This document shows positions 39,716 through 44,735 of a DNA stretch of 59,226 nt, in pieces; within the stretch, counting starts at the first letter, position 1; each line of letters begins with the position of its first letter. The stretch is from a virus, in the IMG/VR virus record IMGVR_UViG_3300020421_000016, positions 1 through 59,226 of that record, one strand, 5' to 3'. The position numbers and the translations under genes are program-made. The notes beneath the pieces were generated by a model. The model searched no databases. It was not told where the DNA came from and worked only from the letters and a program-made list of their open reading frames with translations.

Positions 39716-40555
39716 ATGAGCGAAAATCCACTAAAGCATTTATATAGAAGTAAAACAGTATATGTAGAACTTCCAAGTAAAGGAAAATTTTATAAAAAGC
39801 CGCCAAAATTTTCAGTAGACGGAGAAATAGGTGTAATGCCTATGACTACTAATGACGAGCTAAAGTTAAAAAGTCCAGATGCATTATTTAACGGTGAGGC
39901 TATGTTTGATATGCTATCAAGTTGTGTACCAGACATTGAAAATCCACGTGAAATACCTGCATGTGATTTAGATGTATTGGTATTTGCAATACGTATTGCA
40001 ACATCTGGAGATGAAATGGAAATAAGCAGTGAATGTCCTCACTGTGAAAAAACACATGAATATGAAGTAAATCTAACACGGTTTATGGCAAGTGCTAAAG
40101 AAATGGAATTGGATCCTACTGTGCAAATAGACGAAAACACTACTGTACATGTAAGACCCTATAGTTTAGAAAGCAGAATGAAAACACAAATCCAACAATT
40201 TCATGCTTACAGAATGGAAAGTATGTTAAATGGAGGAGATATTTCTCAAGATCGTAAAGTAGAATTATTTAATGATGCACTAGCGGCGGCTAGCAGTATA
40301 AGTGTAGAACTTGTAGCATCAAACATTACAAAAGTCGAACTTAAATCTGGAGAAGATGTTACTGCCGTAGAAGAGTACGATCACATATATCAATGGGTTA
40401 TGAATATGGATAGCAACACATACAAAAAAATTATTGGCCATATCCGTAAACTAAGTGATGCTAATATAGAAAAAGAAGTTGTATTAAACTGTGCTGGATG
40501 TAATAAAGAATATCGTAGCGATATAGATTTGGATCCCACAAATTTTTTCACATGA
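39716..40555 (+). CDS. gp26: Baseplate hub subunit gp26-like
   Basis: 279 residues. Opening residues (LYRSKTVYVELPSKGKFY) and VDGEIGVMPMTTNDELKLKSPDALFNG are typical of T4-like gp26 hub proteins, which are longer than T4's own 208 residues in marine phages. Two CxxC pairs (SECPHCEKTHEYEV near residue 107, LNCAGCNKEY near residue 259) probably hold one zinc ion. A GAGG ribosome site precedes the ATG. The next small gene follows immediately. The gene lies apart from the main baseplate operon and is transcribed towards the gene-free stretch at 40783. Confidence 0.85.
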   Translation: MSENPLKHLYRSKTVYVELPSKGKFYKKPPKFSVDGEIGVMPMTTNDELKLKSPDALFNGEAMFDMLSSCVPDIENPREIPACDLDVLVFAIRIATSGDEMEISSECPHCEKTHEYEVNLTRFMASAKEMELDPTVQIDENTTVHVRPYSLESRMKTQIQQFHAYRMESMLNGGDISQDRKVELFNDALAAASSISVELVASNITKVELKSGEDVTAVEEYDHIYQWVMNMDSNTYKKIIGHIRKLSDANIEKEVVLNCAGCNKEYRSDIDLDPTNFFT

Positions 40556-40566
40556 GGGCAATTAGA

Positions 40567-40782
40567 ATGACTCCTCAAGAATTGCAGGAGTATACTAAAA
40601 AACTAGTTGCCCAGCAAAAGAATTATCAAAATATTATATTAGAAACAGTTGCTTATAGTAACGGAAGTCTATCATATAACGAAGCATTACAAATGTCAAG
40701 TAGTGCATTTAACCAATTCGAAAAGACACTTGTTAAAAAGATTAAACAGGATAAAGGAATATCTGAATCCAATATGTTATAA
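40567..40782 (+). CDS. Small helical protein downstream of gp26
   Basis: About 71 residues from MTPQELQEYTKKL. I chose the ATG at 40567 because GAGGG lies eight bases before it; an ATG at 40552, overlapping the gp26 stop as ATGA, is the alternative and adds five residues. The protein is helical and charged, with LETVAYSNGSLSYNEALQMSS in the middle (21 residues, split: LETVAYSNGSLS, YNEALQMSS). T4 places the hub-assembly gene 51 near 26, but this protein is far shorter than gp51, so identity is not claimed. Hub-assembly help is inferred. Confidence 0.65.
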   Translation: MTPQELQEYTKKLVAQQKNYQNIILETVAYSNGSLSYNEALQMSSSAFNQFEKTLVKKIKQDKGISESNML

Positions 40783-40791
40783 TCTTGTTTA

Positions 40792-40815
40792 CGTTGTCTA
40801 ACGACAACGGATTTA
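40792..40815 (+). terminator. Candidate terminator of the gp26 transcript
   Basis: CGTTGTC (40792-40798) and GACAACG (40803-40809) form a perfect 7-bp stem with loop TAAC, ten bases after the stop of the small gene and followed by GATTTATT. The tail is only partly T-rich, so strength is uncertain. The minus strand has no T-run after the stem. Confidence 0.5.
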
Positions 40816-40885
40816 TTCATTTCATTCATAAATCATTTATTATTATTAGAAGTAATTATCTTTAGCTTTACCATGATGTCAGTCA

Positions 40886-41186
40886 CACTTAGCCTGATTA
40901 AGGCCAAGTGCATCTGAAAAACTTTACCAGTCAATCGCGCCACACTACATATCGAAAAACCTTTATAACGTAAGGTAAGGGCGGTTGTGCGGTACCCTTT
41001 TACATTCTGCTTACAACGCAGGAACACAGATGGCCATATGTAGCGACCCATCTGCTACCCGTGAGTTCCAATAGTCAGGAGAGCTCACTCATTTTGGTTT
41101 GTCAAACCAACGTATAGACTGCAACACACCACGCCATCGACATCAGCTCACACTGGCAGAATCTTGGTGAGTCGAGAATCCCCGAC
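40886..41186. ncRNA. Candidate structured RNA or regulatory element, strand unknown
   Basis: The gene-free stretch 40783-41203 contains no convincing coding frame. GC is 50 % over 40981-41160 (90 of 180 counted), against 32-33 % in sampled coding lines. Hairpins follow each other almost without overlap: 40886-40910 (9 bp), 40960-40975, 40977-40999, 41007-41021, 41027-41054 (7 bp), 41061-41088 (up to 8 bp), 41094-41110 (7 bp, three-base loop), a two-part stem 41127-41169 and 41171-41186. Strand evidence conflicts: the first stem is fully paired only on minus (G-U), the sixth only on plus (U-G). No tRNA, tmRNA, RNase P or known riboswitch core was recognised. It lies between two convergent operons. 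Confidence 0.5.
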
Positions 41187-41203
41187 CAATCAAAGTTGCT
41201 ATA

Positions 41204-41665
41204 TTATTTGGAGTTTATATTAGCCTGAGTTTTGCGGTGCTCTAATAGACGTTCTCTTAATATATTACTGCCTCCAACTCTTACGTTGATAATGCCATTG
41301 TAATATTCGTCTGTTTCCAGCACACTGCGATCAAATTGTTCTTTTGCTTCTAAGTAACTGAGTTCGCCTTTGCTTTCACAATAATAAAGTATTTGCCTTG
41401 TAAAATTGTTTTCGCCTAATTCTTCTACATCTCTGTTTAGTTTATCACTTGAGCCCCAATAGGTGCGCCAATCACTTTCTTTAGTGCTTCGTCTTTTGTT
41501 CTTTTTGCCTTTTAGAGGTTTTTTTGTAACTTTAAATCTTGCTAATTTTTTGCCTATATATTTTCTATCATTCGTCAGATTGGTAATTATGTAGACAAAT
41601 CCTACACAAGTTTCCGGAAGTTCTTCAACTTTTATTCCGTTATAAGTCCAATCACTTTTTGCCAC
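41204..41665 (-). CDS. GIY-YIG-like endonuclease domain protein
   Basis: 153 residues. GFVYIITNLTNDRKYIGKK near residues 22-40 carries the FVY and YIG strands of the GIY-YIG fold with typical spacing. The catalytic-type Glu is probably in SYLEAKEQF near residue 105. A basic stretch (KKPLKGKKNKRRSTK) follows YIG. Homing endonucleases of T4 (Seg) and stand-alone nucleases share this fold. No DNA-binding repeat module is seen at the C-terminus, so it may be a conserved accessory nuclease. Last gene of the gp55-gp47-gp46 operon, overlapping its neighbour by 14 bases. Confidence 0.75.
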   Translation of the reverse strand: MAKSDWTYNGIKVEELPETCVGFVYIITNLTNDRKYIGKKLARFKVTKKPLKGKKNKRRSTKESDWRTYWGSSDKLNRDVEELGENNFTRQILYYCESKGELSYLEAKEQFDRSVLETDEYYNGIINVRVGGSNILRERLLEHRKTQANINSK

Positions 41666-41954
41666 GTTTGCTCATTTTCTCCAATGTATGTATACCAATA
41701 TTGCTGATATTATCTATTTTTCTATGGCCTGTGTATCTTTGCCTAATAGTTTTGTCGCTTGGTCTTTCATATATTGAAGTTAAATCGCTTGAATCAATTA
41801 TTCCACTATCCACAATCCATTTGTAACTATCATTTTTAACAGAGACGTCATAGCCGTCCCAATTAGTTACTTTAGATTCGGGTACTTTTAATGTAACACC
41901 CGTATCAGGATCTGTCAATGTGATTGTTACACGTTCATTTTTATTCTTCGACAT
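41652..41954 (-). CDS. Small protein of unknown function after gp46
   Basis: About 100 residues from MSKNKNERV. This start overlaps gp46 by 14 bases; an ATG 33 bases further up (MVLLRLTQ) would overlap by 47 and is less likely. Residues 5-40 look like a small beta domain (VTITLTDPDTGVTLKV). The C-terminal half is basic (SDKTIRQRYTGHRK, KMSKRGKK), suggesting nucleic-acid contact. Between the recombination nuclease and a GIY-YIG protein, a DNA-metabolism role is plausible. No family recognised. Confidence 0.6.
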   Translation of the reverse strand: MSKNKNERVTITLTDPDTGVTLKVPESKVTNWDGYDVSVKNDSYKWIVDSGIIDSSDLTSIYERPSDKTIRQRYTGHRKIDNISNIGIHTLEKMSKRGKK

Positions 41955-43716
41955 AATCTGTATCTGCGTTAAACGTAGTAAAACCATTCTCTTTTAGTAC
42001 TTGCAGAGTATGACTAACTCGTCCTACAAGTTCGTCTCTGTGACTAATTAAGAAAATGTTTTTATCTCTTTCACGTACCATTTTCTTTAGTACGCTCAAC
42101 GATGATTCTACACCGTTGCTATCCATGCCTGAGTCTACTAATTCATCTATTGCCAAAAAGTTTATAGGAGTGTTCATGCTTTCGAACACATCTCTAAAGG
42201 ACCAAGATAAGCCAAGGATAAGCCTGTTACGTTCGCCGCGAGATAAGTTGTCAAAGTCTAGTTCCCTACCCAGCTCTGTGATTTCAACAGTCAAGTCGGG
42301 TTGGAATTGTACTTCATGTGGTAAGCCTAGTTTAGTTAAGTAATAGCCTAGTCGTGTATTTAAGTATGATAAGTTTTGTTCTATAATTCGCTTTCTAATA
42401 AAGCTGTCTTTATTAGTTAGCAGTTTCATAAGAAAATCCTGGTGTTCACGTAGAAGATTTAGCTGATTCATATTTTCCCAACTGATCTCCTGAATACCTT
42501 CGTTTTGTAATGCCTCTATTTGATCTGTGTAAGGGTCCTGTTCAGCCTCTTTAGTTTCCAATTGTGTTTTTAATTGCACCACTTTGTTTCTGTGATCGTG
42601 CGCATCGCTCACATTTTCGTAAAAAGTTACTGGTGCTGTGCCTAAGTCTCCAAGTGCATCCAAATTTATTTCATGCTCTTGTAGCTGTGTAAGATTTTCT
42701 TGCAGTGTTGTTTCAGCATCTGCTTTTAAATCTTGTTTTGTTTTGAGAATTTCTTCTTGCTTATCGTCATGTATATCCTGACCACAAGCATGACACTTGT
42801 TATCAACTAATAATGCGATTTCTTTTCCTAGCTTCTCGACTAGCTTGTCTTGTTTTACATTATCCTTTCGGATAGTACTAATGTTATCTTCTAGCTGTGT
42901 TCTACGTTGTAAGTTTACATGGAATACTGCCAAGTCTCCATGTGTAGATAGTTCAGCTTCGATATCTAAATGTTCTAGTTCACAAATTGCTTCATCGAAC
43001 GCTACAATGTCTGCAGATTTTTTATCTTCCCAAACTTTACGTCTGCGTTCTAAGTCTTTAATACTTTTTGCAATTGTTGAATTTGCTTCTTCTACACCCT
43101 TGATGCGATATTCTTCTTCTTTTATTGCATCTTTTGTGTCTTTCATTTGTTCTTTAAGTACGTTTGCTTTTTCACTAAGCATTGTGATACCCAGCAATTG
43201 CTCAATAATATCACGTTGATCATTTGCTCGCATACTAAGGAACGGTTCTGTGTAAGTGTTCAGTGCCATAATATGTTTAAACATAACGTGGCTCATACCC
43301 AACAGGCGTTCTATTTCCTGCTGAGTAAGGCGTCCTTCGCCTTGTCCTTCATCAGTACCGTCTTCCAACATTTCATTATTGTTTACCATAAATTTAAAAA
43401 TGTTAGGTTTACGTCCTCTTTCAATTCTGTACTCTATTCCGTTAACTTCAAAGTCAACTGTAACCAACATACCTTTGTTGTTGGTTTTGTTTATTAAGTT
43501 ATCCTTGCGGATATTTGTTAGTGCATTGCCATACAGTGCATAGCTAAGTGCATTAATTATTGTAGTTTTGCCAGTACCATTACGGCTACCGTCTCCGCCC
43601 AAATCTACATTGTTTCCTAGTACAAGTGTAAGTCCTGCATCAGTAAAACGCACGGCTTGCGTTACGTTACCCACACTCATAAAGTTTTTTATGGTTACGT
43701 TGTTAATATTAATCAT
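41941..43716 (-). CDS. gp46: Recombination endonuclease subunit gp46 (Rad50-like ATPase)
   Basis: 591 residues (T4: 560). Walker A is GSRNGTGKTT at residues 43-52. A coiled-coil arm carries a zinc-hook CHAC at 308-311. The ABC signature is LSRGERNRLILG and Walker B is INFLAIDELVDSG near the C-terminus. With gp47 it forms the Mre11-Rad50-type complex that resects DNA ends for recombination-dependent replication and host DNA breakdown. The ATG overlaps the gp47 stop by four bases. Confidence 0.96.
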   Translation of the reverse strand: MININNVTIKNFMSVGNVTQAVRFTDAGLTLVLGNNVDLGGDGSRNGTGKTTIINALSYALYGNALTNIRKDNLINKTNNKGMLVTVDFEVNGIEYRIERGRKPNIFKFMVNNNEMLEDGTDEGQGEGRLTQQEIERLLGMSHVMFKHIMALNTYTEPFLSMRANDQRDIIEQLLGITMLSEKANVLKEQMKDTKDAIKEEEYRIKGVEEANSTIAKSIKDLERRRKVWEDKKSADIVAFDEAICELEHLDIEAELSTHGDLAVFHVNLQRRTQLEDNISTIRKDNVKQDKLVEKLGKEIALLVDNKCHACGQDIHDDKQEEILKTKQDLKADAETTLQENLTQLQEHEINLDALGDLGTAPVTFYENVSDAHDHRNKVVQLKTQLETKEAEQDPYTDQIEALQNEGIQEISWENMNQLNLLREHQDFLMKLLTNKDSFIRKRIIEQNLSYLNTRLGYYLTKLGLPHEVQFQPDLTVEITELGRELDFDNLSRGERNRLILGLSWSFRDVFESMNTPINFLAIDELVDSGMDSNGVESSLSVLKKMVRERDKNIFLISHRDELVGRVSHTLQVLKENGFTTFNADTDYVEE

Positions 43717-44735
43717 AGGTTCGCATAGATATCCATTAGCATTTTGCTGTTAATCATGTCACTATCAACAGCCTTTAATTGATTATACACTATTTGGTCC
43801 ACATTTTCAACCTCTATTTCATTGTCAGTTTTCCAATCTGTTGCATGCTCTTCTTTTTTAGCAGGCATAAGTGCAATCTCTCGTAGTTTATATTGTTTGG
43901 CAAAAGTTTCCTTTATAAAGTTTGCCTCCTCATAACTAATGGGTACATCTAATGTAACCCTACAATAAGTATTTTCGCTCAAATACTTGTCAGGAGTGTC
44001 AATAAGTTTACTTAGTGGCAGTGTCCTGTACTTTGGACCGTCAGGCCAGTCAATATATTGTGGCTCTCCGTCCCATTCCAATATCATCATACCTCGATCA
44101 TCGTCCCATGCATCTGCATAATTGTGTGGGAAAGGACTACCCAAGTAATGGATATTGTTGTTGTTTTGTCGTTTGTGGAAATGTCCACTAAACACATATT
44201 CTGGTTTCTTAAAGTCTCCAGCAGTTAATCCGCCATGATCTGGCATAGTAACCATTGCGTTCATTTTAAAATGCGGTAGCTCAAAATGTCCAAAAACATA
44301 GCGGCTTTTCAGCTTTGCCATCTTTTTCCATTCATCTTCTACCAGCCAAGGCACAAGTGTAACGCCTCCACTTTCCATCATTTTATCATTGATTAAGTGT
44401 ACATTTTCGTGTAATCCTGCATAAGGAATACTGTGGATTTCACGCTTTTCTCTGTAGTATAAGTCATGATTTCCCATGATCATATACACATTTTCAAATG
44501 CTTCGCTTAGCCTTTTAATGTTTGGCACTGTATAATTTAGTGTGCTTACGTTTACACTACTGCGATGGTGGTGCCAATCACCAAGGAAAATACATGTTTC
44601 ACATCCTTCAGCTTTGGCTTTATCAATAAACCAATAGATAAACCGTTCACAATCATCATTGTGCATACGACTATTGTTTTTATTACCAAAGTGTATATCT
44701 GTAAAGCATGCAACTTTATTAAAAAATTGACTCAT
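43713..44735 (-). CDS. gp47: Recombination endonuclease subunit gp47 (Mre11-like)
   Basis: 340 residues (T4: 339). All metallophosphoesterase motifs are present: Asp13 and His15 (FTDIHFG), Asp53 (LGDWHHH), Asn89-His90-Asp91 (MGNHDLYY), FGHFELPH, and SGHFHKRQ. It supplies the nuclease of the gp46/47 complex. Four-base overlaps join it to gp55 upstream and gp46 downstream, so all three are made together. Confidence 0.96.
   Translation of the reverse strand: MSQFFNKVACFTDIHFGNKNNSRMHNDDCERFIYWFIDKAKAEGCETCIFLGDWHHHRSSVNVSTLNYTVPNIKRLSEAFENVYMIMGNHDLYYREKREIHSIPYAGLHENVHLINDKMMESGGVTLVPWLVEDEWKKMAKLKSRYVFGHFELPHFKMNAMVTMPDHGGLTAGDFKKPEYVFSGHFHKRQNNNNIHYLGSPFPHNYADAWDDDRGMMILEWDGEPQYIDWPDGPKYRTLPLSKLIDTPDKYLSENTYCRVTLDVPISYEEANFIKETFAKQYKLREIALMPAKKEEHATDWKTDNEIEVENVDQIVYNQLKAVDSDMINSKMLMDIYANL

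Follow-up and report, generated by a model that had tools for sequence, protein, structure and literature searches.

To our knowledge, only a handful of large structured RNAs have been described from phages, and in no case has a function been established. ROOL is an ornate large RNA of phages and prophages that is noncoding, structured with pseudoknots, and of unknown function (PMC12286853). GOLLD is likewise a large structured phage and prophage RNA of unknown function; many of its members exceed 800 nt and often lie near tRNAs, one member comes from a marine sample, and Rfam has profiles for both ROOL and GOLLD (PMC12286853). Phage ICP1 produces a noncoding transcript of ~800 nt between gp139 and gp140, which is its most abundant transcript and has an unknown role (PMC7567579). 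In marine T4-like cyanophages, comparison led to the structured RNAs manA, wcaG and PhotoRC-II (PMC2864571).

The element described here lies in the window, i.e., the whole 59,226-nt stretch of viral DNA that was analysed (IMG/VR record IMGVR_UViG_3300020421_000016). We consider positions 40880-41190 of its minus strand to be, with a probability of roughly three in four, the gene of a structured noncoding RNA of ~310 nt that has a double-pseudoknot core and most likely acts in trans. The element occupies a conserved position, has RNA structure, lies on the minus strand and lacks coding capacity.

A search of the window against Rfam 15 gave no match above the gathering thresholds, and hits up to E 10 were all of the chance kind, the best sub-threshold hits reaching 16.1 of 48 bits and 14.4 of 41.2 bits. 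This agrees with the original prediction, which had recognised no known class. The jumbo-phage loci described below also gave no Rfam match, and the only one among the further loci searched was a tRNA in L087. The window itself (59 kb) contains neither a tRNA nor a tmRNA. When three marine families were compared with phage isolates by blastn, no homologue of the RNA was found. Neither at this locus nor for the jumbo copies is an RNA described in the literature searched, which lay mostly outside subscription journals and preprints. With no Rfam family, the same place in more than 100 marine contigs and strong covariation, the proposal of an undescribed phage RNA is borne out.

The gap that contains the RNA (40783-41203) extends from the end of a plus-strand ORF at 40782 to the end of a minus-strand ORF at 41204, in the following arrangement:

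39716-40555, plus strand: baseplate hub (gp26-like) gene (Pfam PF12322 T4_baseplate, E 2e-19), convergent with the RNA
40552-40782, plus strand: small ORF after the hub gene, the last gene to the left of the RNA, kept in close relatives
40792-40809, plus strand: hairpin CGTTGTCTAACGACAACG followed by AT-rich DNA, outside the RNA, kept by near relatives
40880-41190, minus strand: whole structured RNA, ~310 nt, 85-97% conserved in the nearest contigs; strand assigned from G.U asymmetry
41204-41665, minus strand: gene of a GIY-YIG nuclease, immediately upstream of the RNA (Pfam PF19835 SegE_GIY-YIG, E 7.8e-35)
41941-44735, minus strand: gp46 (41941-43716) and gp47 (43713-44735), recombination nucleases upstream of the RNA and in its direction (Pfam AAA_23, Metallophos)

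The ends of the RNA are approximate (5' near 41190, 3' near 40880) and were set by the closest relatives. The gap had been described as GC-rich, gene-free and flanked by convergent operons, and all of this holds. GC is 0.47 at 40880-41190 (0.485 over 41000-41199), compared with 0.375 for the whole window. The plus-strand hub pair faces a minus-strand block of nuclease, gp46 and gp47, in which a further small gene stands between the GIY-YIG gene and gp46. Only one ORF of at least 60 aa lies wholly within the gap (40833-41051, minus strand), and it was rejected as a protein gene: stops or loss of frame occur in 66 of 72 relatives, and its counterparts there have all three lengths modulo 3. The small ORF that follows the hub gene gave no match in a Pfam search. 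The hub operon ends in conserved hairpins (40783-40830, plus strand) of the form CGTTGTC..GACAACG, other relatives carrying the GAGCTAAAGCTC type instead, and the hairpin at 40792-40809 is probably the terminator of this operon, facing the RNA. A relative of the window's GIY-YIG protein (79% amino acid identity) is encoded by the Methylophilales phage Melnitz EXVC044M (L087:7973-8377), where it has another place and no accompanying RNA.

Relatives were first found by searches with the GIY-YIG and hub proteins, and the gap sequences of those contigs range from about 96% down to 68% identity. In one contig (L004) the gap is 94.5% identical, with a hub protein that is just 45% identical. A pattern from the conserved part matches 112 stretches in IMG/VR, which include 72 different full sequences. 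The RNA is located between hub (plus) and gp46 (minus) in every contig with enough flank, in most cases immediately downstream of the GIY-YIG gene. Co-directional gp46/gp47 genes are upstream of it in nearly all contigs, and the interval stays in place across more than 100 marine contigs. The marine pattern was also seen on a 108-kb contig (L302) of a metagenome-assembled genome of a marine gammaproteobacterium (MED685); this is likely to be a phage contig that was binned together with a possible host.

An all-column-pair search over the 72 sequences ranked Watson-Crick helices at the top, and tallies over the same sequences were used to define helices H1, J, K, M, N, Pa and Pb and the pseudoknots PKa and PKb. 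From 5' to 3' on the minus strand, the parts of the RNA are:

41171-41186, minus strand: 5' hairpin GUCG..CGAC, from sequence; L060 and L138 have GUAG/CUAC in place of GUCG/CGAC
41094-41110, minus strand: small hairpin uuGGUUUGACAAACCaa, from sequence; one family has GA/UC in place of GG/CC
40941-41092, minus strand: pseudoknotted core, recovered by covariance model R1 (other families only)
41061-41088, minus strand: hairpin Pb, stems 41061-65/41084-88 and 41067-69/41078-80, paired in all 72 sequences, with compensatory changes
41021-41059, minus strand: hairpin Pa, whose loop is the 5' strand of PKa; 41022/41058 is GC or AT in 72 of 72
41036-41043 and 40945-40952, minus strand: first and second strands of pseudoknot PKa, 8 bp
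41008-41020, minus strand: hairpin N, stem 41008-10/41018-20, whose loop carries the first strand of PKb (41013-41017)
40984-40988, minus strand: second strand of pseudoknot PKb, partner 41013-41017
40977-40999, minus strand: hairpin M, stem 40977-81/40995-99; loop ACnG..AACCG includes PKb
40959-40976, minus strand: hairpin K, stem 40959-63/40972-76; 40961/40974 is CG in 51 and TA in 21
40954-40956, minus strand: 3' strand of helix J, partner 41005-41007, which closes the M/K domain
40885-40911, minus strand: 3' hairpin H1, stem 40885-94/40902-11; 83 G.U cells in the minus reading, 3 in the plus reading

In the fold so defined, the core is a compact double pseudoknot made up of Pa, the first strand of PKb, helix J closing M and K, and the second strand of PKa, which comes immediately behind J. 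PKb is formed with the loop of M, and PKa with the loop of Pa. Both pseudoknots covary: in families other than the window's, 91.5% of PKa cells are paired and six of the eight pairs show double changes, and for PKb 123 of 135 cells are Watson-Crick over 27 distinct cores (GUUGU/ACAAC, GUCUU/AAGAC, GUUUU/AAAAC and others). Compensatory changes also occur at Pa pairs 41027/41054 and 41028/41053, and in helix J, where 40955/41006 is AT, TA or CG and 40956/41005 is AT, TA or GC. In hairpin M, 40978/40998 is AT in 32 sequences and GC in 40, and 40979/40997 is GC in 34 and a minus-reading G.U in 38.

These helices exceed every control applied. For 25 sequences, with the window's family left out, 91.8% of cells are paired, compared with 80.0% after shuffling and no more than 54.4% after sliding, and double changes are seen in 162 cells (55.7 after shuffling, no more than 31 after sliding). 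A tree-based count for the marine RNA gave 27 compensatory branch events, with a null mean of 1.17 and a maximum of 5 in 500 trials. R1, the covariance model built from 25 sequences of families other than the window's, recovers the window at 41092-40941 on the minus strand with 120.6 bits (E 1.1e-33). It also matches eight more marine contigs, five of them with an E-value of 3e-8 and three with 0.005; in each, the RNA directly follows the GIY-YIG gene and shares the strand of that gene. The structure seen in the original prediction is real, by covariation, but it has a pseudoknotted core instead of being a mere succession of separate stems.

The strand, which had been left open for conflicting wobble pairs, is now settled as minus. 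In H1, J, K, M, PKb and N, G.U cells number 192 in the minus reading and 11 in the plus reading (72 sequences); such cells are not mutually independent, but the asymmetry is seen at many separate pairs, and 40959/40976 is a further pair with a minus-reading G.U. Folding energy of the whole gap is lower than that of shuffled sequence, as anticipated (z -3.69 for plus and -3.39 for minus, no shuffle equalling either). For the GC-rich core, z is just -2.44 and -1.87, and folding energy is therefore too weak on its own either to prove an RNA or to assign its strand. The G.U counts also bear on whether the locus is a structured DNA site, i.e., a replication origin or a site of recombination or packaging whose hairpins form as single-stranded or cruciform DNA. 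A convergent gap beside gp46, gp47 and a nuclease would suit such a site; a tolerance of G.U on one strand is not expected from selection on DNA hairpins, and promoter-like boxes accompany the jumbo copies, which makes the DNA-site explanation barely credible.

The 5' part of the RNA differs between families. A further conserved, GC-richer noncoding element (GAUGUCGACGUAGGUUGGGAAAGGUCAGAGCCC...) was observed at the same locus in L018:4680-5150, L058:3414-3960, L016, L026, L054, L055 and L081; its copies are highly uniform in sequence, and it is matched neither by R1 nor by Rfam. In two contigs, L003 and L010, a window-type core is combined with a 5' part that resembles the start of this element, at 73-89% identity over stretches of 42-140 nt.

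The gene next to the RNA is exchanged. In L118 (6473-6985) and L145 (1842-2360) a PDDEXK_15 nuclease takes the place of the GIY-YIG gene and the RNA is kept, and jumbo phages have an endoVII or RusA nuclease beside the RNA. The nucleases observed at this position (GIY-YIG, PDDEXK_15, endonuclease VII, RusA-like, Holliday junction resolvase) belong to unrelated families; beside gp46/gp47, one and the same site has thus seen repeated non-homologous replacement of its nuclease. Compact double pseudoknots are characteristic of catalytic RNAs, and together with the adjoining gene for a homing-type GIY-YIG nuclease this might suggest a ribozyme or the remnant of a mobile intron. However, since L118 and L145 keep the RNA in the absence of the GIY-YIG gene, we reject it as GIY-YIG cargo or an intron. 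Moreover, Rfam gave no ribozyme or intron match, the RNA is intergenic and interrupts no gene, and its strand order is by inspection unlike that of group I P3-P8. A ribozyme or intron remnant is therefore very unlikely.

By comparison of hub proteins, the nearest isolates are jumbo phages. Phage 121Q of E. coli has an ORF-free gap of 836 nt at the hub-gp46 locus, where its gp46/gp47-type counterpart is annotated as a recombination endonuclease, and the element in this gap recurs at 160 places in 40 jumbo-phage records. The carriers are phages of E. coli, Salmonella, Klebsiella and Cronobacter. With a jumbo model, copies number four in 121Q, five in GAP32, five in BF and three in RaK2. Those of 121Q are:

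KM507819.1, 90331-90727, 192836-193316, 247505-248049 and 326666-327161; L199:7240-7720 (minus strand): jumbo RNA copies of ~480 nt, unannotated

The jumbo element (~480 nt) consists of a hairpin with the PKa loop, GUUG (PKb), J, M, K, J and PKa, and the loop of its hairpin M reads ACnG..CAACCCG. Over 29 copies, PKa is 99.5% paired and PKb, J and M are each 100% paired; the Pa stem as guessed in this alignment is out of register (33% paired). The tree-based count gave 50 compensatory events, with 1.33 expected. Neighbouring genes vary from copy to copy, one copy often being at the hub-gp46 locus, and several copies end near T-runs. A TATAAT box is located upstream of 24 of 32 copies, mostly with a TG extension, so that most copies appear, from sequence, to sit behind a promoter-like extended -10 element. 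Small annotated ORFs that overlap jumbo copies, such as 121Q_516 (opposite strand) and Hallingskeid CDS0412-0414, are probably spurious.

The marine and jumbo RNAs probably share an origin. They agree in genome place (hub, small ORF, RNA, recombination genes), in strand relative to gp46 and in a topology that is unusual, and a loop is common to both (UACCGCACAACC-GCC in the window, AACCGGACAACCCGCC in jumbo copy L247). Bridging marine RNAs, from the eight further contigs matched by R1, have a core that lacks hairpin N and is jumbo-like, as seen from CCGUUGAUAUGACGAAUCUAGAG..ACAGGUCAACCGCC in L041 and CCGUUGCAUAUGACUGCGAUAGAG..ACAGAGCAACCCGC in the 121Q-like form. R1 found nothing significant in the jumbo loci or whole jumbo genomes, and the jumbo model (R2) has no significant match to the window form. 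In 78 kb of marine contigs, the best two matches of R2 are the bridging L041 (E 0.086) and L036 (E 0.21), at the right place and on the right strand. Because the models do not cross-match significantly, the case for common origin is built on topology, locus, strand, loop and bridging sequences. A topology search with single sequences was too unspecific. Long gene-poor stretches were also observed at the hub-gp46 locus of Phosso (Sinorhizobium; L197:8233-9246; folding z -3.6) and PA5oct (Pseudomonas; L198:7526-9038), and no AACC-type loop motif in a matching setting was found in the gaps of PA5oct, Phosso and Atu_ph07.

Downstream of the marine RNA, in its own direction, there is no gene; the convergent hub operon follows instead. 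Since no gene lies behind the RNA, its neighbour gene is swapped, and the jumbo copies occupy unrelated loci with promoter-like boxes, we favour action in trans. We infer that the RNA is transcribed in marine phages and that, once folded, it would act in trans during infection by binding or occupying a host or phage machine, candidates being RNA polymerase, the ribosome and a nuclease. Early host-type promoters and the presence of several diverged copies in jumbo phages suggest a role soon after infection. For the marine form, no promoter was identified and the RNA starts right after the nuclease gene, of whose mRNA it could be the 3' end. The main rival explanation, for the marine form alone, is action in cis: as part of the 3' untranslated region of the gp47-gp46-nuclease mRNA, the element would serve to stabilise, process or regulate this transcript, and no free RNA would act in trans. 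A start ~14 nt past the nuclease stop codon on the same strand is what such an element would show, as is the co-directional gp46/gp47 block; the replacement of the upstream gene by unrelated nucleases and the jumbo copies at several unrelated loci, most with a TATAAT box just before them, speak against it, and we regard it as unlikely. Returning to the trans-acting RNA, a wider scenario seems to us evenly balanced: a single RNA gene of ancient origin, in which the double-pseudoknot core is fixed and the 5' domains can be exchanged, would have been kept at the hub-gp46 position across marine T4-like phages and the jumbo phages of E. coli and related hosts, and multiplied in the latter to three to five separately transcribed copies that serve as an early trans-acting RNA reprogramming a host machine.

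What is new here is the RNA class and its fold, rather than a mechanism. The class is widespread in the ocean, and each pseudoknot of its compact core is strongly supported. If the jumbo RNA is related, the function of a large phage RNA becomes open to direct genetics and biochemistry in E. coli; one carrier, Sharanji, is recorded on K-12 MG1655.

The best explanation of the element is a new class of RNA, loosely in the sense of ROOL and GOLLD. Like ROOL, the window RNA is phage-encoded, pseudoknotted and noncoding, but it is about half as long, occupies another locus that is not beside tRNA genes, and has no Rfam match. From GOLLD it differs by its length of ~310 nt, by the lack of a tRNA in the window and by leaving the Rfam model unmatched. 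The homo-oligomeric RNA cage is a feature of ROOL and GOLLD, and the window RNA is known here from sequence. The ICP1 RNA is likewise large and free of ORFs, and is set apart by its unrelated genomic place. Finally, manA, wcaG and PhotoRC-II are described as neighbours of metabolic or photosynthesis genes and are represented in Rfam, whereas the window RNA matches none of its families and sits between the genes for a baseplate hub and the recombination nucleases.
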